Source of the DNA: a virus
Length of the DNA stretch: 32,065 nt
Strand: one strand, 5' to 3'
Virus record (IMG/VR): IMGVR_UViG_3300050011_000379
Span: 1 to 32,065 of that record
In this document: piece after piece, positions 7,331 to 31,177 of the stretch
How the letters are laid out: every line of letters starts with the position of its first letter
Position numbering within the stretch: the first letter of the stretch is position 1
The notes under the pieces: generated by a model
What the model saw: only the letters and a program-made list of their open reading frames with translations
What the model was told of the DNA's origin: nothing
Databases searched by the model: none
Program-made: the position numbers and the translations under genes

Positions 7331-7663
7331 ATGGAAGCCAATCCCCAGTCGGGGCAGATTGCCGTCGAGCCCTTCGTGTCCACGACCATGGAGAAGCACG
7401 TCGTCCTGGGCGTGGCCATCATCGACCAGCGCCAGTACATGGCGGCCCTGAAGGTCGTCTTCGGGAACAAGGACTTCTGCGCCGGGGACACCGTGTACTT
7501 CGAGGGGGGGCAGTGCGCCTCCCCCTGGGCGAAGCGCGTCTACGAGTTGCGGGGCCAGAAGTTCGTGCTCGCGCCGACGAACCTCGTCATCCTCGTGGAC
7601 CGTGCTCCCGTTGGCGCACCGCCGGTGCTGCCGCCCGCAGGGCCTCCCGGAGACATCGCCTGA
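7331..7663 (+). CDS. GroES-like co-chaperonin candidate
   Basis: This encodes 110 residues from ATG 7331. The second half fits the GroES/gp31 beta-barrel: KDFCAGDTVYFEGG (compare VKVGDIVIF in GroES), then YELRGQKFVLAPTNLVILVD (compare the EEVLIMSESDILAIV ending). Before it, STTMEKHVVLGVAI is where GroES has its mobile loop, and VVL could play the part of the IVL contact. Length is close to GroES (97) and T4 gp31 (111). A GroEL gene in the same window makes a partner expected, but the identity is low and the first 20 residues do not align. It overlaps the next start codon as ATGA. Confidence 0.45.
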   Translation: MEANPQSGQIAVEPFVSTTMEKHVVLGVAIIDQRQYMAALKVVFGNKDFCAGDTVYFEGGQCASPWAKRVYELRGQKFVLAPTNLVILVDRAPVGAPPVLPPAGPPGDIA

Positions 7664-8661
7664 TGTCGACGCGATGCCTGTACATCGGAGACCCGCACGT
7701 CTGTCCTACCGAGCTGGACGATGCGGATGCGCTGATGCGCTGCGTCTCCGACGCTGTCGTCGCCCATCGGCCGGACCGTGTCGTCTTTCTCGGCGACGAA
7801 TTTCACACCCATGCCATTGTGCACCTGGAGGTCATGCACTGGTGGGTGGTCAACCTCCTGTCCCTCGGGGTCAGGGTTCCCACGTGGGTACTCGTGGGCA
7901 ACCACGACAAGTGTGGCAACGGCCGCTCGGACATCCACGCCCTGGAGCCGATGAAGCACATCCCCGGGGTGACGGTCGTCGAGGCCCCCGTGGAGTTCCT
8001 CCCCGGGGTGCTCGTGCTCCCGCACATGGACACCTGGGAGGGCTTCCGAACGGCCTGCGAGCAGAACCCCGTGCCGGTGGCGGTGTGCCACAACACCTTC
8101 AAGGGCACGACGCTGGAGAACGGGTTCTACGCCCCCGATGGGTTCGACGTCACCACGCTTCCCCAGGAGATGTTCCTCAGCGGGCACATCCACACCCCCC
8201 AGGAGTTCGGCAAGGTCTGGTATCTCGGGGCTCCTCGTTGGAGAATAGCCACTGACGCCAACGTCGACCGAGCGCTCTGGCTGGTGACGCATGGGGACGA
8301 CGGCCGCGTGGTCGCCCGGACGCCGTTGGACACCGGCACCTACTGCCGGCGCATCATCAACGCCGACGAGGTCGAGGGAGGGCAGCTCGACCCCGAGGGG
8401 TACGACACCAAGAAGGACGACGTGCGGCTGACCATCACCGGCTCGGAGGCCTTCCTCAAGGCCTCGGTGCCCGTGCGCACCGCCCAGGGGTTCCGCGTCC
8501 GTACCGTGAAGGTCGGCGCCGGGGCAGTGGCTCGGGTCCGCGAGAGCGAGGGCATCCCCCAGGCGTTCCGGAAGTTCGCCGGCGCCTACGAGTGCAAGCG
8601 CGGTACCCCCAGGGACGTGCTCCTGCGTCTCGCCGCGGAGAGGTTGGCCACCGGTGGGTAA
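7663..8661 (+). CDS. Metallophosphoesterase, Mre11/SbcD-like
   Basis: The start is ATG 7663, overlapping the previous stop as ATGA; 332 residues. Calcineurin-type metal motifs appear in order: GDPH (D10, H12), GDEFH (D45), GNHDK (N80, H81), a His in VAVCHNTF and SGHIHTP. This order is typical of Mre11, SbcD and T4 gp47, the nuclease halves of repair complexes that process DNA ends. The last 100 residues are a separate cap or C-terminal region. No SbcC/Rad50-type ATPase partner lies in this window. Codons for residues about 100-120 (7961-8023) occur again, inverted, at 30326-30388. Confidence 0.82.
   Translation: MSTRCLYIGDPHVCPTELDDADALMRCVSDAVVAHRPDRVVFLGDEFHTHAIVHLEVMHWWVVNLLSLGVRVPTWVLVGNHDKCGNGRSDIHALEPMKHIPGVTVVEAPVEFLPGVLVLPHMDTWEGFRTACEQNPVPVAVCHNTFKGTTLENGFYAPDGFDVTTLPQEMFLSGHIHTPQEFGKVWYLGAPRWRIATDANVDRALWLVTHGDDGRVVARTPLDTGTYCRRIINADEVEGGQLDPEGYDTKKDDVRLTITGSEAFLKASVPVRTAQGFRVRTVKVGAGAVARVRESEGIPQAFRKFAGAYECKRGTPRDVLLRLAAERLATGG
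7961..8023 (+). repeat. 63-bp inverted repeat, copy in the phosphoesterase gene
   Basis: These 63 bases recur as their reverse complement at 30326-30388 with one mismatch. Here they are in frame and encode IPGVTVVEAPVEFLPGVLVLP within the phosphoesterase fold, so this is the likely source copy. Confidence 0.9.
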
Positions 8662-10221: not shown

Positions 10222-13200
10222 GTGCCCCCCCCGACAATCGACGAGATTCTTCGCAAGGCCCTGTGGGCGCCCTGCGAATCCAAGGAGGCCCTCGGGCGGT
10301 GGGTGAAGCTCGTCCTCGGCGTTGACCTCCCCGATGGGCACGTGGACGCGAGCAGCACCTCCTCCCCGCTGGAGATGCTGTGGGAAATCTACAGCACGTG
10401 CCGGGCCAACGGCACGGAGGCCGACCGCTACATGGCCTACGCGGCCCGGACGGCGCTGAAGACCCTCACGGCGTCCATCTTCGAGGTCCTGTGCCTGGTG
10501 CACCTGGACCGGGACGTCGTCCACCTGGCGGCCATCGTGGACCAGAGCCAGAAGGCACAGGATTATTTCAACGCCTTCTTCAACAGGCCGATGCTCCGGG
10601 ACTTCCGGACCTCGAAGACCACGACCTACCTGGAAATCACGAGGTACGTCCACGTCGTCACCGGGGAGGTCCTGTCGCCGCCGGCCTGGAAGGCCCTGCA
10701 GACGGACGTCGAGCGCCAGGACTACGACGTCCACGTGGGGTACATCGACATCACGGCCTGTACCATGCAGGGCACGAACTGCTGGGCTGACGGGTCGACG
10801 GTCAGGACCAAGGACCGGGGCTTGGTGGCCATCGAGGAGGTCCGGGTCGGGGAATCCGTGTTGGGCTGCGACCTCCACACCGGCGAAGACGAGTGGATGC
10901 CCGTGGGGGGCCTCACCTCCACCTCGGAGAAGTGCGCCCTAGGGCTGACCTTCGAGGACGGCGCCCGGCTCTTCCCCTCCGAGGACCATCCGATGTTCAC
11001 AGACGTCGGGTGGCTTCGCGCTAGGGGCATGAAGTCCTACTTCAAGGTTGCCTGTCGTCCCGCCGAGGAGAGAGCGCCTCGGCACATGCTCCCCCCGGTG
11101 GAAATCCAGACCGAGCCAGAGGTAGTGAATCCAGCGTCTGTGCTTTTGGGTACGTGTTTGGGCGATGCCTCTCTTTCTTGGCCTAGGGGACGCACCGGTA
11201 AGCCCTACGGGCAAGGTCCACGACTGCACTTGCGGCACTCCGAGGACCAAGAGCACCTGCTTCGTGCCGTTGAGCGGGCCGTCAGGGCCTTTGGGCTGCG
11301 GTGCTCCACCGGGGTGTTGAATCGTGATTCTAGTGGGTACGAGACCGACCAGGAACACCTGTGGTTGTCTTCCTCCGTGTCCGAGCGGCTTGTCGACCTC
11401 TACCGGCTCCTGTACCCGAACGGGGTCAAGACCATTACCAAGGAGCTGCTGGAGCTTCTCGACGCAGAGGCTCTTGCGTATTGGATTATGGACGATGGCT
11501 GTGCCAGTCACTTGAACCCCGTTGTTGCCAAGGACCATCCGGTGACGCTGGCCACCTGCTGCTTCTCCCCGGGGGAGCACGAGTTGATGGTGGAGTTCTT
11601 CCGTTCGAAATGGGGGCTCGCCGCCAAGAGGGTCGTGCAGGGTCGCCACTCTTTGTTGGTATTCGACATGCGAAGCTCGAGAGCCATCGCTGACCTTGTG
11701 GCTCCCTTCATGCTCCCCTCGATGAAGTACAAGCTCCCTGTCCCCCAGTCGATGGCCGACAGCGAGTGCCTTTCCTGCGGAAGGACCACCTCGACCTGTG
11801 CCTCGGGATTCCCTCGGTGTGGTCACTGCGGCACCGGCGAGGTGAAGAGCCAGAGGTACCACGGAAAGCTCGTGAAGAAGCTAAGGGGTATGTGCACGGC
11901 GACCGTCGTGGGGATGGAGTTCTACGGTAAGGCTCGCCTGTGGGACCTTCACATTGACACCGACAAGCCCCATCATCGCAACTTCTGGGTCTACTGTGGG
12001 GCCCGGCGCTTCCTGGCCCACAACAGCAAGCACGCGGCCGTGCTCGTCGTCGACGAAGTGGATGTAATCGAAGGGGAAAAGGTACGGGCGTACGAGCAAG
12101 CAAAAGCAATTCCCGACGCCCAGCGTGGGAAGAATCCCTTCGTGTTGTACATCAGCACGAGGAAGACGAACTTCGGCAAGGTCCAGGCGGAAATCGACGC
12201 CGCGGAGACCACGGGCCTAGTGGTCCGGCACTGGAACATCATCGACGTCACGGAGCCCTGCCCGGCGAGCCGTCACGAGCCCGGGAAGCCCCACGTGGTG
12301 CTGTACCGCAGCGAGAAGACGCTGAGGGTTCTCACGGAGCCGGACTACGCGGCCCTGGACGAGAACCGCAGGAAGGACTTCGAGCCCCGGGAGGCCTTCT
12401 GGGGGTGCCAGCACAACTGCAAGCTCTTCGGCCCCTGCGAGGGCCGTCTGGCCATCGTCCGCACGGACCGCAAGGCGACGACGATGAAGCGCCTGGGCAA
12501 CGTGACGTCGATGCTCCGGGCCATGAGCACGGAGATGGTCATCGCGGAGCTGCTGTGCCGGAAGCCGGGCACGGAGGGCCTCATCTACCCGAGCCTGGAC
12601 CCGGACGTGCACCTGCTCACGGCGGCGCGCATGGCCGAGGTCATCCTCGGGGAGCACGTCGCCGAGCCCTTCTACCAGGAGCAGCTCGTGGAGCTGATGC
12701 TCGCCCGGGACTTCCGGCCCGTGGCCGGCATCGACTTCGGGTACAGCCACAACTTCTCCCTGGTCCTGGGGTTCACCGACGGGAACCGGCTGTTCGTCGT
12801 CGACGCCTACAGCCAGCCGGAGCTGATGCCCGACAAGCAGGTCGCGGCGGCTCTGCGGTACCTCCAGCCCCTGCAGAAGGAGGGGCTCAACCCCAGGTTC
12901 TCGGCGCGCATCTACCCCGACACGGCCAACCCGCAGATGATTAAGGTCCTCATCGAGGCGGGGCTGCACTGCGTCCGCTGGCAGAAGACCCCTGGGTCGG
13001 TGCTCGCCGGCATCGAGGCCATGCGCGTCTCCCTGGGGACCCTCGTGGGCCAGCCGCAGCTGCTCTTCCTCCGGGGCAACGAGCGCGTGGAGTTCTTCTT
13101 CCAGCGCCTGTCCCAGTACAACTGGAAACGCGAGGCCGACGGCCGGCCCTCGGACGTCCCCAATGACGTCAACGACGACGAGTGTGACGCCACGCGTTAT

Positions 13201-13503
13201 ATGGTACAGAACGTTCTCGGGAAGTACTCGCACCTCGTCGTCGCCCCGGACGCCGGCGTGGACGTCGACCCCCATGGGGCGGCGGTGAACATCCACCGGC
13301 AGCTCGTGGGCATGCCCGGGCGTCCGTCCCCGTCGGGCCTGGCGGCCGTCAGCCCGGAGGTCGCGGCGCAGCTGCACTGGAACCAAATTGCGGGCCAGGT
13401 GGGTCTGCCCCAGGTCAACCCCGGGGAGACCCGGGCCGCCGTCAAGGGCTCCCTCGGGGACACCAGCCACGGGCGCCGTGGCACGTTTTCGTACGACATC
13501 TAA
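10222..13503 (+). CDS. terL: Terminase large subunit containing an intein
   Basis: The precursor is 1093 residues from GTG 10222; removing the intein (residues 187-601) leaves 678. The N-extein is the packaging ATPase: AARTALKT near 74-81 sits where the Walker A loop belongs but is atypical, and AVLVVDEVD just after the intein is Walker B. The C-extein carries the RNase H-like nuclease that cuts concatemers: GIDFGYSHNFSLVLGF near 836, PDTANP near 899 and DECDATRYM near 988 supply the acidic residues. The protein works with the small terminase at the portal. Intein codons are less GC-biased than extein codons, a sign of separate origin. The call is firm; the unusual Walker A is a reading by position. 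Confidence 0.9.
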   Translation: MPPPTIDEILRKALWAPCESKEALGRWVKLVLGVDLPDGHVDASSTSSPLEMLWEIYSTCRANGTEADRYMAYAARTALKTLTASIFEVLCLVHLDRDVVHLAAIVDQSQKAQDYFNAFFNRPMLRDFRTSKTTTYLEITRYVHVVTGEVLSPPAWKALQTDVERQDYDVHVGYIDITACTMQGTNCWADGSTVRTKDRGLVAIEEVRVGESVLGCDLHTGEDEWMPVGGLTSTSEKCALGLTFEDGARLFPSEDHPMFTDVGWLRARGMKSYFKVACRPAEERAPRHMLPPVEIQTEPEVVNPASVLLGTCLGDASLSWPRGRTGKPYGQGPRLHLRHSEDQEHLLRAVERAVRAFGLRCSTGVLNRDSSGYETDQEHLWLSSSVSERLVDLYRLLYPNGVKTITKELLELLDAEALAYWIMDDGCASHLNPVVAKDHPVTLATCCFSPGEHELMVEFFRSKWGLAAKRVVQGRHSLLVFDMRSSRAIADLVAPFMLPSMKYKLPVPQSMADSECLSCGRTTSTCASGFPRCGHCGTGEVKSQRYHGKLVKKLRGMCTATVVGMEFYGKARLWDLHIDTDKPHHRNFWVYCGARRFLAHNSKHAAVLVVDEVDVIEGEKVRAYEQAKAIPDAQRGKNPFVLYISTRKTNFGKVQAEIDAAETTGLVVRHWNIIDVTEPCPASRHEPGKPHVVLYRSEKTLRVLTEPDYAALDENRRKDFEPREAFWGCQHNCKLFGPCEGRLAIVRTDRKATTMKRLGNVTSMLRAMSTEMVIAELLCRKPGTEGLIYPSLDPDVHLLTAARMAEVILGEHVAEPFYQEQLVELMLARDFRPVAGIDFGYSHNFSLVLGFTDGNRLFVVDAYSQPELMPDKQVAAALRYLQPLQKEGLNPRFSARIYPDTANPQMIKVLIEAGLHCVRWQKTPGSVLAGIEAMRVSLGTLVGQPQLLFLRGNERVEFFFQRLSQYNWKREADGRPSDVPNDVNDDECDATRYMVQNVLGKYSHLVVAPDAGVDVDPHGAAVNIHRQLVGMPGRPSPSGLAAVSPEVAAQLHWNQIAGQVGLPQVNPGETRAAVKGSLGDTSHGRRGTFSYDI
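10780..12024 (+). other. Intein with LAGLIDADG-type endonuclease, inside TerL
   Basis: 415 residues. The N-terminal splicing residue is Cys (CWADGSTV, block A). Block B is at EDHPMF. The end is FLAHN followed by extein Ser, so splicing would use Cys1, the terminal His-Asn and Ser+1. Two dodecapeptide motifs, LLGTCLGDASL and LAYWIMDDGC, mark a LAGLIDADG homing endonuclease domain. Between that domain and the C-terminal splicing blocks lies an extra Cys-rich segment, CLSCG with CGHCG about 15 residues later, which could be a DNA-binding zinc ribbon. The insertion point, GTN-SKHAAVLVVDEVD, lies just before Walker B, a conserved site typical for inteins. Splicing looks intact from sequence. Confidence 0.93.
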
Positions 13504-19240: not shown

Positions 19241-21667
19241 ATGCTCGGCTGGCAGACCTCGACCTCCGTCCTCCCCGTAGCCCTCTCTGGTCACGAAGCC
19301 TTCGCCTTCGGGCGCCGGGTGTTCGTCCTCGGTGGCACCCCGGATGGCGCCACGGCCAACCCCCAGTGCTACTCCGCGGTCGTCTCCCAGGGCGGGGACC
19401 TCGGGCAGTTCCAGGCCACGGCCTCGGTTCCGCCCTCGCTGGAGACCGGCGGCACCCTCATCGACTTCGGGTTCGCGCAGAACCCCAGCCGCAAGGACCT
19501 CGTGTACGTCCTCGGGGGCAGCGACCCCACGGGGGCCACGCCCTACGCGGGGACGTTCATCGGCCGTGCGAACACCGACGGGGGCCTGACGTGGACCCCG
19601 GGGCAGCCCCTCCCGGCTCCCCTGGCGGGCGTGAAGGCCGCCATCTGCGGGGACTGGCTGTACGCCATCGGCGGGGACCCGTTGAGCGGAGCCACCGTGG
19701 GCATCGTCTCCGCCGTCGCCGGGGACATCGCGCTCGCCAAGGGCAGCGGCAACGCCGTGACGTTGACGCTAAGCGTCAACACCGTCCCCGCGGAGACCGT
19801 CAACGCCGCGGCCACGGTTGCCGCCGGGCAGGCGCAGGCGAGCCTCGCGAACACCCCGACGGTCGTCGCCGGCCCGGAGGCTCAGCCGAGCCTCAACGGC
19901 GTCGGCGGCATCACCACGGTGTACACGAGCACGCCCGCTCACACGAAGCTCGTCCCTGGCACGGTGGTCCTCACGGAGACTGACAACGGGGGCGGCAACG
20001 GCCCTTGGACGGACGACGGCGCCGGGAACATCGCCGCCGCCGGAGCCGACGGCTCGGGGGATGCCTTCACGGGCACCGTGAATTACGTCACGGGCGTCAT
20101 CACGTTGACGTTCGCCATTGCCTCCAACGCGGCGACGCGCTTCACGCTGGCCTACAGCTACGACGCGGCTCTGGTGTTCACCACGACCCCGCATGCCCTG
20201 CTCGTTCCGGGCACGGTGGTGTTGCACGACAGTATCGGGCCCTCCGGGCCCTTCACCGACGACGGCGCCGGGAACATCTCCGGGACTTCCGCTGGGCAGG
20301 CCTGGACGGGGGTCATCAACTACGTCTCGGGGCTCATTACCATGACCTTCGCGGTTCCCCCGTCCGCTTCGGCCTGGACTGCGGACTACCACTGGCGGAA
20401 CGCCACGACGGTGTTCACCACGACCCCGCATGCCCTGCTCGTTCCGGGCACGGTGGTGTTGCACGACAGCGCCGGCCCCACGGGACCCTTCACAGACGAC
20501 GGCTCGGGGGCCATCTCCGGGACGTCCGGCGGCCAGGCTTGGACGGCGACCGTCAACTACATCACGGGTCTCATTACCCTGACCTACGCCGCGGCCCCCA
20601 CGGCCGCGACCTGGACCGCGGACTACCACTGGGACGCGAGCATGTCCCTGGCGCATACCCTGGCGGACCCCACGCCCGTGCTGTCGACGGTCATCCTCTA
20701 CGACGGGGTCACGCACTTCCCCGCGGTCGCCGGGGTCTTCGCCGGGGGCACGAGCTTCGGCGCCCCCTGGACGGGGACCGTGGACACCAGCGGCCACGTG
20801 GCCATCACCTTCACGGGCGTCCACCCGCCGGCCCTGGGGGTCTTCACCGTCGCCTACCAGTTCTCGGCGTTCACGTCCGGGCAGGTCGCCGGGGAGTTGC
20901 TCGTCATCCCCAGCTCGTCGGTGCTCGTCACCACGGGGCCGCACGCCACCAATGCCGGCGTGTACCAGGTCACGGGCACGAGCAGCTCCACGGTCATCCA
21001 CGCGACCAAAATCCGGAACATCGGCGACACCGCGGTGGTGACGGCCCCCGTGACCCAGGCCGCGGTGGCCGTGGGGGCGACCGGGGACGTCGAGGTCGCC
21101 GCCGACGACTTCCCGGCGCTGGCCTCGGTCTTTGCCGCCAAGCTCCAGTCCGACGGGAGCCTGGGGGCGTGGGTGCGCGGCACCGACTGCCCGGCGGCCT
21201 TCACGGGCACGCCCTTGACCGGGCACCTGGCGCTGGGCACGCGCAAGTACCTGTACGTCGTCGGCGGCCAGCCCGAGGCCGTCGGTGGGTCCCAGCTCAT
21301 CTACCGGGGCACGCCCGAGGCGGGCACCACGGGCTTCAACATCAAGTGGGACCTGCAGGGCTTCGGGCTCGACGGCATCCGCGTCGGCGCCGGGGCACCG
21401 ACGCTCTTCCCCGGGAAGTTCATCGTCGCCGGCGGGAGCACGGACGGCACCGCGGCCAACGCCCTGGCGACCTGCGACGAGAGCCTCGCGAATCCCGACG
21501 GCAGCGTTCGCGCCGCCTCCCAGGGGTCCCAGCTCCCGGCGCCGGTGCTCGGGCCGAAGCTCGTGGTCTGCAACGGCTGGCTGTTCTCCATCGGCGGCCA
21601 GGACGTCTCCGCGGTTCAGCTGGCGACCATCGCCCAGGCGCAGCTCCAGTCAGACGGCAGCTTCTAG
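19241..21667 (+). CDS. Kelch-like beta-propeller virion protein with inserted repeat domains
   Basis: This encodes 808 residues from ATG 19241. Kelch-type blades appear at the start (AFAFGRRVFVLGGTPDGA, DLVYVLGGSDP, GDWLYAIGGDP) and again at the end (KYLYVVGGQPEAVGG, FPGKFIVAGGSTDG, NGWLFSIGGQDVS). Between them lie three copies of a beta domain of about 80 residues, with core text LVPGTVVL, GPFTDDG, GxISG, GQAWT, VNYxxGLIT and WTADYHW; the first copy is the most divergent. Such repeats are common in phage fibres and appendages. The protein is probably exposed on the virion, for binding host surface or sugar. It is the only gene of its CAATCTA unit. Confidence 0.7.
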   Translation: MLGWQTSTSVLPVALSGHEAFAFGRRVFVLGGTPDGATANPQCYSAVVSQGGDLGQFQATASVPPSLETGGTLIDFGFAQNPSRKDLVYVLGGSDPTGATPYAGTFIGRANTDGGLTWTPGQPLPAPLAGVKAAICGDWLYAIGGDPLSGATVGIVSAVAGDIALAKGSGNAVTLTLSVNTVPAETVNAAATVAAGQAQASLANTPTVVAGPEAQPSLNGVGGITTVYTSTPAHTKLVPGTVVLTETDNGGGNGPWTDDGAGNIAAAGADGSGDAFTGTVNYVTGVITLTFAIASNAATRFTLAYSYDAALVFTTTPHALLVPGTVVLHDSIGPSGPFTDDGAGNISGTSAGQAWTGVINYVSGLITMTFAVPPSASAWTADYHWRNATTVFTTTPHALLVPGTVVLHDSAGPTGPFTDDGSGAISGTSGGQAWTATVNYITGLITLTYAAAPTAATWTADYHWDASMSLAHTLADPTPVLSTVILYDGVTHFPAVAGVFAGGTSFGAPWTGTVDTSGHVAITFTGVHPPALGVFTVAYQFSAFTSGQVAGELLVIPSSSVLVTTGPHATNAGVYQVTGTSSSTVIHATKIRNIGDTAVVTAPVTQAAVAVGATGDVEVAADDFPALASVFAAKLQSDGSLGAWVRGTDCPAAFTGTPLTGHLALGTRKYLYVVGGQPEAVGGSQLIYRGTPEAGTTGFNIKWDLQGFGLDGIRVGAGAPTLFPGKFIVAGGSTDGTAANALATCDESLANPDGSVRAASQGSQLPAPVLGPKLVVCNGWLFSIGGQDVSAVQLATIAQAQLQSDGSF
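20173..20232 (+). repeat. 60-bp exact direct repeat, copy 1
   Basis: The 60 bases at 20173-20232 recur exactly at 20410-20469, 237 bp (79 codons) downstream and in frame. They encode VFTTTPHALLVPGTVVLHDS, so the repeat domain was duplicated recently or is kept uniform by gene conversion. Confidence 0.92.
20410..20469 (+). repeat. 60-bp exact direct repeat, copy 2
   Basis: Second copy of the unit at 20173-20232. Recombination between the two would remove exactly one 79-residue domain without a frameshift, giving length variants of the protein. Confidence 0.92.
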
Positions 21668-25359: not shown

Positions 25360-28300
25360 ATGCTTGACCTGGACAAGATTCACGGAATGGTGGTTGACGG
25401 AATTTGTGCGTCTGCTGCGGTAGACAGTTCAGGAGAGGTGCTCGACATCCGCGGCGCCGACTGTAGCGACATGTACAATAACACCTGCCCGATTAATTAC
25501 GAGCACAAGAATCCTGACGACCCCGGGAACTCCGCGTTGGACATCGTGGGGCGCATTGTCTACGGGAAGAAGCTCTACTCCCTGGACGACTGCGAGACCT
25601 CCAGGCAGAAGGAGTTCTTCGAGAAGGTCAAGCTCCCGTGCATCTACTTCATCGGCGTGCTCGCCGACGAGGCCGGGCACCTGGGCGCGCAGTCCGCGGC
25701 CGCGCTCATCCGCAACGACGTCGCCAACGGCTTCGTGCCGCTCTGCCGCTGGAGCGTGGAGGGCAGTACCTTGGAGACTGCCGACAGCGGTCACAAGCTC
25801 GTGCGCTCCGTCGTACGCAGGGTGGCCCTGACCCTGAAGCCGTGTAATAGAAGTGTACAAACTGGGATTCTCGCCGACCCCGCGGCTCCCCCGAAGTTCG
25901 AGGTCAAGACGAAGGTCGACAAGCCCACGGAGGACCTCCTGGCCGGGCTGGCGGAGAAGCTCACCGCCAAGTCGACGTTCAAGTCCGAGGCCGACGGGCT
26001 CATGTACCGGAAGCTCGGCAGCTCCTGGGAGGACGCCTACGACCCATGTGTGAAGGCCCTCGAGGCCGGCATGCCCACGGGCGCCCCGTCGACGCTCACT
26101 GGCGGGGCCGCGCTCCAGCGTGAGGACATCTCCGAGCGGGCGCGGCGCATCCACGACGTCACGAACCGCGCGAAATCCGTCGTAAGGGACTGGTGGGGCT
26201 CCGGGGGAAAGGACGACATTCGGACCGTGCTGAAGATGCAGCTCCCCGAGGTCAGCCCGGAGTTCATCGAGCGTTTTTCTAGCGTCGTCGATGACTACCG
26301 GTTGAAGAACGCCGGCAAGGGCATGCTCAAGGTCGAGGACCTCCTGGACTTCTCGAGCCTGGAGAAGCGCGCCAAGGCCAAGCCTCCGGAGGAGTTGCCC
26401 GTCCAGGACAACGTCGAGCCCGAGGGCGGGGGTGACACGGACTTCGACACGGAGGCCCTGGAGGCCAAGGCCGGCAAGACCCAGCTGCCGCCGCCGAGCA
26501 AGTACCTGGAGGCGCACCGGCACCTCCCGGGGCCGCTGCCGACGCCCACCAGCCGCGCCCGGGCGTACTTCGACCCGGACAAGGGGGTGCTGCACACGCA
26601 GCTGGGCAGCTACCCCATGGCCATCCCCAGCGACGCCATGTACCGGGCCATCCTCGAGTCCCCGGCGGTGCAGCGTCCCCACGAGGAGGCGATGCGTCAC
26701 TGGCTGCACCTGCACAAGCTCCTCGCCGCGGGGAAGCTCCCCCCGGAAGTCATGATGCACGCCGCGCTCTTCTCCGGGCAGTCCAGCAGCGAGAAGGTCC
26801 CCATGCAGGAGATAGGTTTCTCGCATCTCCAGGACCAGATTGCCCGCGGCGCCGACCCCTCGCGGCCCGGTGGCGTCGGGAAGCATCACATCGCCGCCTA
26901 CAAGCAGGGCATCCTCGGCAACTCCGGGCTGCCGGAGTTCGAGCGCGAGCACTGGGCCGGTCCGGGGGGAGACGCGACGCGCGTCGGCCCGGATAGCGTC
27001 ACCGGCAAGCCCGAGGGCGCGCAGGCGTCGATGATGTACCCGACGCAGAAGGTCGACAACATCCTCAGCTACCACGAGCTGCACCCGGACCTCGTGAGGC
27101 TCCTGGGCCAGCACGGCGTCGATGCCCGGACCATCGCGAACAAGCTCATCCAGCAAAAGCAGGACGCGCGGAAGTACGCGGGCGTGGCCGCCCGCAAGGA
27201 GAAGGGACCGCTGGGCGTGCGCCAGCCGAGCTTCCAGGAGGCCACGGGCACGTCCCGGGTCCCGGGGTTCGCGCCGAAGACCATCCGGTACATGCTCGGG
27301 ATGATGGGTGCCGGGAACGCCCACGTCCCGGACACGCACTTCATCCGACACGTGTTCGGCCTGCCGACGGACTCCCAGGTCCGGGACGAGACCGAGGCGG
27401 AGCTGGGTCGGCCGCTGGGACCGGGTGAGAAGCCCTACGCGCCGAACGCCCACCTGAAGAACGTCATGTGGTACGGCCCCGGGGCCGGGCACATCGGCGA
27501 CGCCATCGACCGCTTCTACGGCGCCCACCACCCGGCGGTGGCCATGGTCCGGGACCGTTACGGGAAGCAGCTCGCCGGCCCCGACCAGGCCATCTTCCCG
27601 GGGTTCTGGGCGCACTGGCTGTCCATCGCCCCCCACGAGGGTCAGCAGGGCATCGCCAACTACGCGAGCAACGCCGAGACGAACCACAGCGTGTACTGGC
27701 GTGCCGTCGAGCACGTGCTCCAGCACTACGGCCTCAACGAGGACCTCGGCAAGGGCGAGGTGGGCCTGCACGACGCCGGCTCGGCTCCCGAGGGTATCCG
27801 GGCGCTGCCTCTGCACATGCGCACGTTCCTCGCGCAGAAGTCCATGGAGGGCCTGCTGGGGGAGACCCCGGCGTCGCTGTTCTACGCGCAGAAGCTGTTG
27901 CCGATGCTCCTCGCGGCCAAGCTCGGGGTCACCACCAGCGCCCCCGCCGCCGCGGCGGCCGTCGCCAAGGCCGAGGCCCTGGCGGTGAACCTCGGGGCGC
28001 TGACGCAGGCCCTGCGCAAGGCCGAGGAGGACCAGCAGGCCGGCGTGGAGACCTACCAAGGGCAGCGCGTCAAGCCTGGCTACTTGCACATGGCGTCCCC
28101 GCATCCTAAGACCGGCGAGCAGCGCTTCGTCGTCCTGGGTGCGACGCCGCGGGAGTTCGTGGGCCACTGGCCGTCGTCCCCGGAGAAGCTCGAGAGCGTG
28201 CACATCGACGACAGCCTGGAAGGCTTGCCGCCGTATCACGTGCTCGCATGGCCAAAACCCGCGGAGAGCAAGTCCTTCGTTATCCAGGCCGAGCACGGCA

Positions 28301-29244
28301 TCCCCGAGGTGACGCACCACCCGGAGCAGAAGCGCCTGCTCCACGGCCTGCGCACCGAGACTCGCGCCTCCGCACCGGCTCACGCCATCGGCCGCGGCAT
28401 CAAGGGCGTGCACGAGAACGCCTTCAGCCGCCCCGGCGATGCCTTCTGGACGCAGGGCCCCGCGGGCCAGCCGGTGTTCGTGAAGCGCAGCCTCGACACC
28501 AACACCAAGGACTTCGACGAGGCGCGACGCGAGGCGGCCTACTACAACCTCGGCAAGGAGTACTTCGGCCTAGGCGACTACCTGACGCCGACGGCGGCGT
28601 ACACGCACCCCATAACGGGGCAGAACTACAGCGTTTCCGAGGGCGTCAGCGACGCCGAGCACTGGGACGAGAAGTCCGAGGCTCACAGGGCCGTGCTCGC
28701 CGGGCTACACGGTGCCGGAGAGGCGGACAAGCTCCAGCTGATGAATGGCATCATGGGCAACACCGACAGGCACGGGCACAACTACGTGTTCTCCAAGGCG
28801 GCACGCGGGGGACTGAAGCTCATCGACCACGGGCGCACGCTCTTCCACAGTGAGAACCGCGGCTTCCGGCCGGCGGCGTACATGTGGCATCACCTGGACC
28901 CGAGGAACCCCTTCATGCACTCCGCGGTGCCCGTGCATCCCCTGGCGCAGCAGTGGCTCCACGGGCTGCCTACCGCGGGTATCGTCGCAGCTGCAGCTGC
29001 CTCGGGGATGTCCAGCGCGTACCAGCTGGAGCTGCTCGAGCGCCTCACGACGGCCAAGGCGGTCCTCAGGGCTAACCCCAGTGCCACGTACAACGACATC
29101 GGAGACGGCATCTACCGCGTCAACGAGGTCTCGCGGCGCCTACGCGCAGACGCCTCCTCCGCGGCGCAGGCCGCGCCCGCGGTACCGCCAGTGCCGGAAA
29201 CCCAGCCAGCGCGTAAGCTCCGAGGCGACGCTCATGCCAAATAG
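25360..29244 (+). CDS. Prohead protease fused to HhH-GPD glycosylase-like and HipA/PI-kinase-like domains
   Basis: 1294 residues from ATG 25360. Residues 1-180 resemble T4 gp21-type prohead proteases: INYEHKN (His 49), LPCIYFIGVL, then CRWSVEGSTL (probable Ser 132) and RRVALTLKPCN. Residues about 180-380 are helical, charged linker. Residues about 380-800 hold a second domain; VPGFAPKTIRYMLGMMG (634-650) and VPDTHFIRHVFGL (656-668) resemble the helix-hairpin-helix and catalytic Asp of endonuclease III, with Lys 640 and Asp 658 at the catalytic places. Residues about 1030-1200 look like a HipA/PI4K-type kinase: FVKRS (Lys 1042), DEARRE, GNTDRHGHN (Asp 1136, Asn 1141), LIDHG (Asp 1156). The protease call is good, the kinase fair, the glycosylase-like region tentative. 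It overlaps the next gene by 11 nt. Confidence 0.7.
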   Translation: MLDLDKIHGMVVDGICASAAVDSSGEVLDIRGADCSDMYNNTCPINYEHKNPDDPGNSALDIVGRIVYGKKLYSLDDCETSRQKEFFEKVKLPCIYFIGVLADEAGHLGAQSAAALIRNDVANGFVPLCRWSVEGSTLETADSGHKLVRSVVRRVALTLKPCNRSVQTGILADPAAPPKFEVKTKVDKPTEDLLAGLAEKLTAKSTFKSEADGLMYRKLGSSWEDAYDPCVKALEAGMPTGAPSTLTGGAALQREDISERARRIHDVTNRAKSVVRDWWGSGGKDDIRTVLKMQLPEVSPEFIERFSSVVDDYRLKNAGKGMLKVEDLLDFSSLEKRAKAKPPEELPVQDNVEPEGGGDTDFDTEALEAKAGKTQLPPPSKYLEAHRHLPGPLPTPTSRARAYFDPDKGVLHTQLGSYPMAIPSDAMYRAILESPAVQRPHEEAMRHWLHLHKLLAAGKLPPEVMMHAALFSGQSSSEKVPMQEIGFSHLQDQIARGADPSRPGGVGKHHIAAYKQGILGNSGLPEFEREHWAGPGGDATRVGPDSVTGKPEGAQASMMYPTQKVDNILSYHELHPDLVRLLGQHGVDARTIANKLIQQKQDARKYAGVAARKEKGPLGVRQPSFQEATGTSRVPGFAPKTIRYMLGMMGAGNAHVPDTHFIRHVFGLPTDSQVRDETEAELGRPLGPGEKPYAPNAHLKNVMWYGPGAGHIGDAIDRFYGAHHPAVAMVRDRYGKQLAGPDQAIFPGFWAHWLSIAPHEGQQGIANYASNAETNHSVYWRAVEHVLQHYGLNEDLGKGEVGLHDAGSAPEGIRALPLHMRTFLAQKSMEGLLGETPASLFYAQKLLPMLLAAKLGVTTSAPAAAAAVAKAEALAVNLGALTQALRKAEEDQQAGVETYQGQRVKPGYLHMASPHPKTGEQRFVVLGATPREFVGHWPSSPEKLESVHIDDSLEGLPPYHVLAWPKPAESKSFVIQAEHGIPEVTHHPEQKRLLHGLRTETRASAPAHAIGRGIKGVHENAFSRPGDAFWTQGPAGQPVFVKRSLDTNTKDFDEARREAAYYNLGKEYFGLGDYLTPTAAYTHPITGQNYSVSEGVSDAEHWDEKSEAHRAVLAGLHGAGEADKLQLMNGIMGNTDRHGHNYVFSKAARGGLKLIDHGRTLFHSENRGFRPAAYMWHHLDPRNPFMHSAVPVHPLAQQWLHGLPTAGIVAAAAASGMSSAYQLELLERLTTAKAVLRANPSATYNDIGDGIYRVNEVSRRLRADASSAAQAAPAVPPVPETQPARKLRGDAHAK

Positions 29245-31177
29245 CGGCGACACGTACTCTGTCTTCAGGCTCACCCACGGCCAGCATGGCCTCGAGCACC
29301 AGCTCGCCGGACGCTTCTTCTTCGACCCCGAGGGAGCCATTGTCGTCCTTGAGGACTACCACGGGCTGTTGCAGGGCCTCAGCGGCCCGGTGACGTCCGC
29401 CAGCCAGGCGCTGCTGGCCTCGCTGTCGCGCAGCGCCTACACGGAGGTCGTGCGCACGGCCGACCTCCACGATGGCAGCCGCCCGGAGTTGCTGCCCGAG
29501 GTCGACACCGGACCAGCTTCAGGGAATGCCCTCCAGGGTGCCCCAGTGGCTCCAGGCGGCGTTCCCCAGCTCCCGCCCGTGTGGGACTACCACCGTCCGG
29601 GCATGGAGACGCCGTCCTGCCTGGAGTGGCACCGGGGCACAGGCACGGCCCTCCTCAACGGCCAGGCCCTGGGGGACGAGGAGCTGCAGCAGCTGCTGCA
29701 GAACCTCGCCGAAGGCACGGCGACCCTCAGGTACCGGGGTACTGCTGCCCTTCCCGGCGTGGCAAAGATGGAGGCCGCCCTCGGCGGCGAGCCCTTGCTG
29801 CTGCTGCAGAAGGGCGAGGACCCGGCCAACGACGACCTCGAGGAGGACGCCGGCATGCCCGGGGTGGGCAACAGGTACGCGTACGCACAGTGGCTACCCA
29901 AGGCCGGCCCCGGCGGCGTGCACCTGGCGCTGGACGCCAACAACTTCTCGGCCGTCAACGAAGCCTACGGGCAGAAGGTCGGGGACGAGGCGCTGGCGGC
30001 CATCGGCAGGGCGATGCGCTCCGCCCTCGGGGAAGTCGCGGGGAAGAAGGAGACGCACCTCTTCCGCCTCGGCGGCGACAACTTCATGGCGTACGTGCCC
30101 ACGTTCGAGCACGCGGCGCACTTCGCCCGGGCCCTGCGGTCCCGCCTGGAGGCCATCCCCGCCGTGGGGGGCACGCACCAGCTGGGGATGTCCTTGGGCA
30201 TGGGTGACAGCCCCGGGGTGGCCCAGAGGTCCTTGCAGGAGCACCGCGCCACCCCTGGGGCTAGAGACGCTGTCCTGGGGGCACACAGTCTGGTCCCGGG
30301 GCATACTCACGGGTTTGTCGGCACCGCGGGAGCACGAGCACTCCGGGGAGGAACTCCACGGGGGCCTCGACGACCGTCACCCCGGGGAGAGGTTCCGTCT
30401 CTGGACGCCGCGCCGACGGCCACGCTCCAGCGTCCCCACGAGGAAGCGCCACACGTGGGCCCCACGAGCTGCACCGCGGGTAACCCCGACTGTGGGCGTG
30501 ACGCCAAGGAGATGGACGCCGAGACCCGAGCCGAGATTCTCCAGAGCGACGTCGACGAGCCCCTACCTGGTGCCAGTCGTTGCCCGAGGTGCTTGGGCTG
30601 GGCGGAGAAACCGAAGTTCCAGTCGCTCCAGGGCGGCGGCCAGACCACGGCTCCGACGTCCCCGGGGCTGAAGCTCGTCAAGGCCGAGGGAAACCAGCGG
30701 GGACTGTGCCCCGCGGGGAACCCCAGGTGTTTGGAGGAGACCGCGCATTGGGATAGTCTTGGGCCGGAAGAGAGGCAGTACCATGTGGGCCCCTTCAGCG
30801 GCGAGGGGGACATCCCGGCTTTGCGGGGGGAGCAGCAGTGCCCCGGGTGCCTGGAGTGGAGCAACCCTTGCCCTGCGGGCAATCCTGACTGCCGCGCCCA
30901 AGGGTGGGACCTTAAGGGGGCCGATGAGGGTTACTTGCAGCAGCACTTTCCTGTGCCCAAAGGTGAGGAGCACCAGGTTTGCCCGCGGTGCCATGAGACT
31001 CCGTCGACGGTCAAGACCAGGCCCGTGCCGACTAGGGGTTCTGGTTTTGCTGTCGACCAGCTGGCCGTGGACCGGGCTCTAGCGGCCCATCGAGCCGGGA
31101 AGCCTCCTCCTCCGGTGGTTCTTCCCGGCGGCGGCCAGACCACGGCTCCGGCGTCCCCGGGGCTGAAGCTCGTCTAG
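29234..31177 (+). CDS. GGDEF-like protein with three tandem zinc-binding repeats
   Basis: 647 residues from ATG 29234. Residues about 205-335 follow the GGDEF fold: MPGVGNRYAY, VHLALDANNFSAVNEAYGQ (metal Asp 234), VGDEALAAIGRAMRSAL, then FRLGGDNF (278-284) and HQLGMSLGMGDS. The signature is GGDNF instead of GGDEF, the usual Lys after the NF is Ser, and no RxxD inhibitory site is seen, so cyclic-di-GMP synthesis is doubtful. Residues 412-590 hold three units, each C-T/P-AGNP-D/R-C followed 25-35 residues later by CPxC, likely zinc sites. Residues about 365-405 contain DNA copied from elsewhere in the genome. The gene overlaps the protease fusion and is probably a virion component. GGDEF call good; role unknown. 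Confidence 0.68.
   Translation: MPNSGDTYSVFRLTHGQHGLEHQLAGRFFFDPEGAIVVLEDYHGLLQGLSGPVTSASQALLASLSRSAYTEVVRTADLHDGSRPELLPEVDTGPASGNALQGAPVAPGGVPQLPPVWDYHRPGMETPSCLEWHRGTGTALLNGQALGDEELQQLLQNLAEGTATLRYRGTAALPGVAKMEAALGGEPLLLLQKGEDPANDDLEEDAGMPGVGNRYAYAQWLPKAGPGGVHLALDANNFSAVNEAYGQKVGDEALAAIGRAMRSALGEVAGKKETHLFRLGGDNFMAYVPTFEHAAHFARALRSRLEAIPAVGGTHQLGMSLGMGDSPGVAQRSLQEHRATPGARDAVLGAHSLVPGHTHGFVGTAGARALRGGTPRGPRRPSPRGEVPSLDAAPTATLQRPHEEAPHVGPTSCTAGNPDCGRDAKEMDAETRAEILQSDVDEPLPGASRCPRCLGWAEKPKFQSLQGGGQTTAPTSPGLKLVKAEGNQRGLCPAGNPRCLEETAHWDSLGPEERQYHVGPFSGEGDIPALRGEQQCPGCLEWSNPCPAGNPDCRAQGWDLKGADEGYLQQHFPVPKGEEHQVCPRCHETPSTVKTRPVPTRGSGFAVDQLAVDRALAAHRAGKPPPPVVLPGGGQTTAPASPGLKLV
30326..30388 (-). repeat. 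63-bp inverted repeat, copy in the GGDEF-like gene
   Basis: Reverse complement of 7961-8023 from the phosphoesterase gene, 62 of 63 bases identical. Read rightward here it encodes low-complexity Arg/Gly/Pro text, unlike a folded domain, so this copy looks secondary. Confidence 0.9.
30632..30679 (+). repeat. 48-bp direct repeat, copy 1
   Basis: The 48 bases recur at 31127-31174 with one mismatch, 495 bp (165 codons) downstream and in frame, encoding GGGQTTAPTSPGLKLV here. The two copies bracket the second and third zinc repeats. Confidence 0.92.
31127..31174 (+). repeat. 48-bp direct repeat, copy 2, at the gene end
   Basis: Copy of 30632-30679 ending one base before the stop codon; it encodes GGGQTTAPASPGLKLV, the final 16 residues of the protein. 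Recombination between copies would delete two zinc units in frame. Confidence 0.92.

Follow-up and report, generated by a model that had tools for sequence, protein, structure and literature searches.

A 63-bp inverted copy of a phosphoesterase gene segment within the GGDEF-domain gene of a phage related to Myxococcus phage Mx1

The DNA analysed here (the window) is a 32,065-base IMG/VR virus record, probably a fragment. Translated comparison with Myxococcus phage Mx1 (OR576727) indicates that it comes from a related phage. The Mx1 proteins match the window in tblastn at 30–54% identity, and the genes for helicase, sigma factor, phosphoesterase, terminase, portal, prohead protease and nucleotide cyclase (GGDEF) lie in the same order and on the same strand in both. 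Among viral contigs the closest group of relatives stands at 36–46% identity, and when the first 25 kb of the window were searched against the phage collection, nothing close to identical turned up, in sets from which records very similar to the window may be missing. The prohead protease and the GGDEF protein are encoded by adjacent genes in the window, Mx1 and the relatives L040 and L042 and by one long ORF in the relatives L037, L038, L039, L041 and L043; the pairing adjoins the capsid genes. The large terminase gene (ORF 10222–13503) has an in-frame interruption of ~410 codons at 10780–12021 that is absent from Mx1. This segment has a Hint-like start (CWADGSTVRTKDRG), a LAGLIDADG_2 endonuclease domain (PF03161, E = 2e-22) and an LAHN end followed by S, and on these motifs we assign it as an intein with a homing endonuclease.

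The GGDEF-domain ORF (29234–31177, + strand; PF00990, E = 1e-10) corresponds to two adjacent Mx1 genes joined together (WNM70323 and the nucleotide cyclase WNM70324), plus a long C-terminal extension. The last motif that it has in common with its relatives is AHSLVPGH (30281–30304; AHSLVPGHEGPLP in L037 and L039). Most of the relatives' proteins end no more than ~70 residues from this motif, which takes the general form AHS(L/A)(V/L)PG(H/R/S)EGP, and their tails beyond it are short, Pro/Ala-rich and poorly alignable. The protein in the window diverges from them after AHSLVPGH, and 21 bp downstream begins a 63-bp segment, described below, that none of the relatives' GGDEF proteins carries; their length and sequence vary from about that point on. 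Because the tails of the relatives are of this kind, the segment sits in tolerant sequence.

Three Cys modules (C-x-AGNP-x-C ... CP[RG]C), zinc-ribbon-like in appearance, occupy 30470–30991. No relatives of this Cys-rich part were found in viral contigs, phages, PHROGs, Pfam or the PDB. The Cys-rich modules (30470–31177) could instead be translated separately, from a GTG at 30455 that has GAGGAAG just before it. Upstream, the GGDEF motif itself (30071–30085) reads GGDNF; it is GGDEF in Mx1 and in all nine Mx1-type relatives. The fourth residue of this motif is catalytic in diguanylate cyclases, and the domain encoded in the window may be inactive, to judge by the substitution.

The 63-bp segment at 30326–30388 (21 codons on the + strand of the GGDEF ORF) matches the reverse complement of 7961–8023, ~22 kb away, at 62 of 63 positions; the sole mismatch, at 30342, is T in the copy and C in the donor. 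The pair scores 111 bits in a BLASTN self-comparison of the window. As a chance baseline we used 60 fourth-order Markov simulations of the full 32,065-base window, in which the top repeat of any kind reached 51 bits and the maxima averaged 36. The match is therefore not a product of chance, in agreement with the sequence-only reading that had described 30326–30388 as an inverted copy of 7961–8023. That reading was also right to place the copied text within the phosphoesterase fold and the copy between modules, which here are the GGDEF domain on one side and the Cys-rich part on the other. The bases immediately outside the 63 bp do not match the donor flanks on either side. A palindrome, CCCCGGGG, is present twice in the donor (7962 and 8001) and once at the right end of the copy (30380). 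An exact 27-mer search among viral contigs returned no other carrier of the copy.

The composition of the 63 bp differs from that of the sequence on either side. GC contents at the three codon positions are 0.74, 0.49 and 0.89 in the native part of the ORF before the copy, 0.90, 0.95 and 0.38 inside it, and 0.81, 0.59 and 0.81 in the 81 bp downstream. Read in the GGDEF frame, the 63 bp have a codon score of −1.06 per codon; read in the donor frame, on the opposite strand, they score +0.52. In the linker that follows (30389–30469), where the coding signal of the GGDEF frame resumes, the score is 0.22 in that frame and negative in the other two forward frames. Since the codon statistics drop over the length of the segment and are restored downstream without a change of frame, the segment is an out-of-frame insert: 21 stop-free codons that are foreign to the GGDEF frame, beyond which the native frame resumes. 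The competing possibility, that the insert pushed a native tail out of frame and fused the gene to a separate Cys-rich one, was set aside, as codon scores on both sides favor the present frame. In-frame deletions were also scored against a profile of relatives to locate the insertion; the exact 63-bp deletion ranked 558th of 1,991, and the 63 bp was thus not singled out by this approach.

The donor segment, PGVTVVEAPVEFLPGVLVLPH (7961–8023, + strand), belongs to a calcineurin-like phosphoesterase gene (PF00149; homologous part of the ORF 7657–8661, + strand) that is collinear with its Mx1 homologue, the two proteins being 36–38% identical. In an alignment of nine phosphoesterases, the window's own and eight homologues with that of Mx1 among them, the segment falls at one common protein position. 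The phosphoesterase ORF is unbroken and aligns with its homologues, so that a near-identical inverted copy coexists with an intact source, and the GGDEF relatives carry nothing resembling the antisense text of the segment. Because the segment is native in the phosphoesterases and absent from the GGDEF relatives, the alignments indicate that copying ran from the phosphoesterase to the GGDEF gene. No close relative with an empty site, in which the same flanks are joined without the insert, was found; the tails of the known relatives are very divergent.

We consider a single inverted templated insertion, made by a template switch or by microhomology-mediated repair, to be the probable origin of the 63 bp. 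In its favor are an identity far above chance, a donor that is native in the phosphoesterase homologues, codon statistics that are foreign to the GGDEF frame inside the copy and native-like on both sides of it, the lack of the copy in the relatives' GGDEF proteins, a gene order that agrees with Mx1, and the occurrence of CCCCGGGG in both donor and copy. During replication or break repair in the tail, a nascent 3′ end would have switched to a strand of the phosphoesterase gene, been extended there by 63 nt in opposite orientation and then switched back. A candidate landing microhomology is the CCCCGGGG palindrome at the copy's right end; as the bases just outside the copy are unlike the donor, this role is conjectural. 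The insert could have persisted because it has no in-frame stop, leaves the reading frame unshifted and occupies a change-tolerant tail, and it need not have a function. Template switching had been offered as one possible cause on first reading, and we retain it as a likely one for a short, near-identical inverted copy that left both its source and the gene order intact.

Inverted templated insertions at breaks and template-switch (MMBIR-type) insertions have been described in yeast and human cells (PMC11724301, PMC8421209). These events resemble the present one, in that a short inverted segment derives from a template at another site and the source remains intact. The inverted duplications in PMC11724301 are, however, mostly ~5–34 bp in length and arise by a foldback mechanism, whereas here 63 bp come from 22 kb away, in a phage, by a mechanism that we infer. 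The quasipalindrome template-switch mutations of E. coli share inverted copying by a template-switching polymerase, but they are local (PMC7202029, PMC6357072), occurring between the arms of a nearby imperfect inverted repeat, and the phage donor is 22 kb distant. A quasipalindrome mutation was rejected for the window on the grounds that the two sites are 22 kb apart and the sequence outside the shared 63 bp is mismatched. No phage example of a long-range inverted templated insertion was found in the part of the literature covered.

The alternative that fares best is an artefact, in which the 63 bp came to lie in the GGDEF gene through a chimera formed during amplification or library preparation, or through a wrong path of the assembly. 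The source is an IMG/VR virus contig, and the ~1.7 kb from the copy rightward to the contig end has no relatives to confirm that it belongs to the genome. Against this, the sequences that border the copy are on both sides other than those bordering the donor in the phosphoesterase gene, so one wrong join at the shared 63 bp would be insufficient and two independent ones would be needed. One base differs inside the copy, the frame is open, and the codon signal is back in frame after it. We regard an artefact as unlikely, though as a possibility to be taken seriously.

A second alternative takes the linker to be a patchwork that a diversification process has assembled from short pieces of several phage genes, copied in repeatedly. 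It draws on the clustering of three matches within the last 850 bp of one gene: the 63-bp copy, a 17-bp match to the protease gene and a 48-bp direct repeat. The 17-bp match, CAGCGTCCCCACGAGGA, is exact between 30428–30444 and 26671–26687 and encodes QRPHEEA in the same frame, as the sequence-only reading had it. Its 34 bits are at chance level, however: 1.2 pairs of at least 34 bits are expected per simulated window, and so we treat the match as a chance one that is no evidence of copying. An exact k-mer count gives just one other 17-mer pair outside longer repeats. The density of weak repeats in the stretch is likewise unexceptional (9, against a simulated mean of 5 and maximum of 15). Within the linker only the 63 bp exceeds chance, contrary to the view of it as an assembly of phage-gene copies.

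The self-comparison for further short copies thus yielded nothing more in the linker, but it did reveal a real repeat in the same gene that had gone unremarked. This 48-bp direct repeat, at 30632–30679 (GGGQTTAPTSPGLKLV) and at the C-terminus, 31127–31174 (GGGQTTAPASPGLKLV, then the stop), is identical at 47 of 48 positions. Its two copies share a frame, reading GGGQTTAP[TA]SPGLKLV. In the window as a whole, only the 63 bp, this direct repeat and a tandem repeat at 20.0–20.6 kb are clearly above chance. The tandem repeat lies inside ORF 19241–21667 and consists of adjacent ~223-bp units, 20173–20395 and 20410–20632, that are 84% identical; a third, weaker piece is at 20000–20036.

Self-comparison of relatives was no more favorable to a patchwork. 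Comparable inverted copies were absent from Mx1 (169.6 kb) and three other relatives (G001, 68 kb; G002, 31 kb; G007, 86 kb), in which we found no inverted repeat of at least 48 bits over ~354 kb in all, and the earlier suggestion of diversification by short-patch copying is not sustained. A wider comparison over 550 kb of kin loci, partly the same sequence, gave one inverted 46-bp pair, in L043. It lies at 566–611 and 11575–11619, reads TTGACATTTAATCG[GT]TAAATGGATATATTAAAT, and is intergenic, lying just upstream of two ORFs; we rejected it as a comparable case because it looks like a promoter or operator element. With one significant patch from another gene in the window and none alike in the relatives compared, there is no evidence of a copying or diversification system, and we hold a patchwork origin to be very improbable.

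The orientation of the copy allows for a role in trans. Both genes are read from the + strand, and a 63-nt stretch of the phosphoesterase message could therefore form a duplex with the GGDEF message, with cleavage or a translational block as the outcome. In RNA the pairing would be continuous over the 63 positions, the lone difference forming a G-U, with a predicted duplex energy of −159 kcal/mol. Any inverted copy of this length would pair likewise, however, the C-to-T change that yields the G-U is a common type of mutation, and the copy was found in no relative examined. That such pairing is what the copy does seems very improbable to us, and we judge it just as doubtful that it lowers phosphoesterase expression as a form of cross-regulation born of a copying accident. 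Finally, the idea that the segment was duplicated in the course of a large inversion with its ends at these sites, which would suit copies that are inverted and 22 kb apart, deserves almost no credence: gene order and strands from helicase to GGDEF match those of Mx1, which excludes such an origin unless a second inversion restored the order, and an inverted state of the intervening segment relative to kin was rejected on the same collinearity.

Taken as the single templated insertion that we favor, the 63-bp copy looks real and is an ordinary mutation rather than the work of a new or dedicated system. If reads confirm it, it would be a clean long-range inverted templated insertion, and a recent one judging by its identity to the donor. 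A phage gene would in that case have gained 21 codons of new protein sequence from the antisense text of another.
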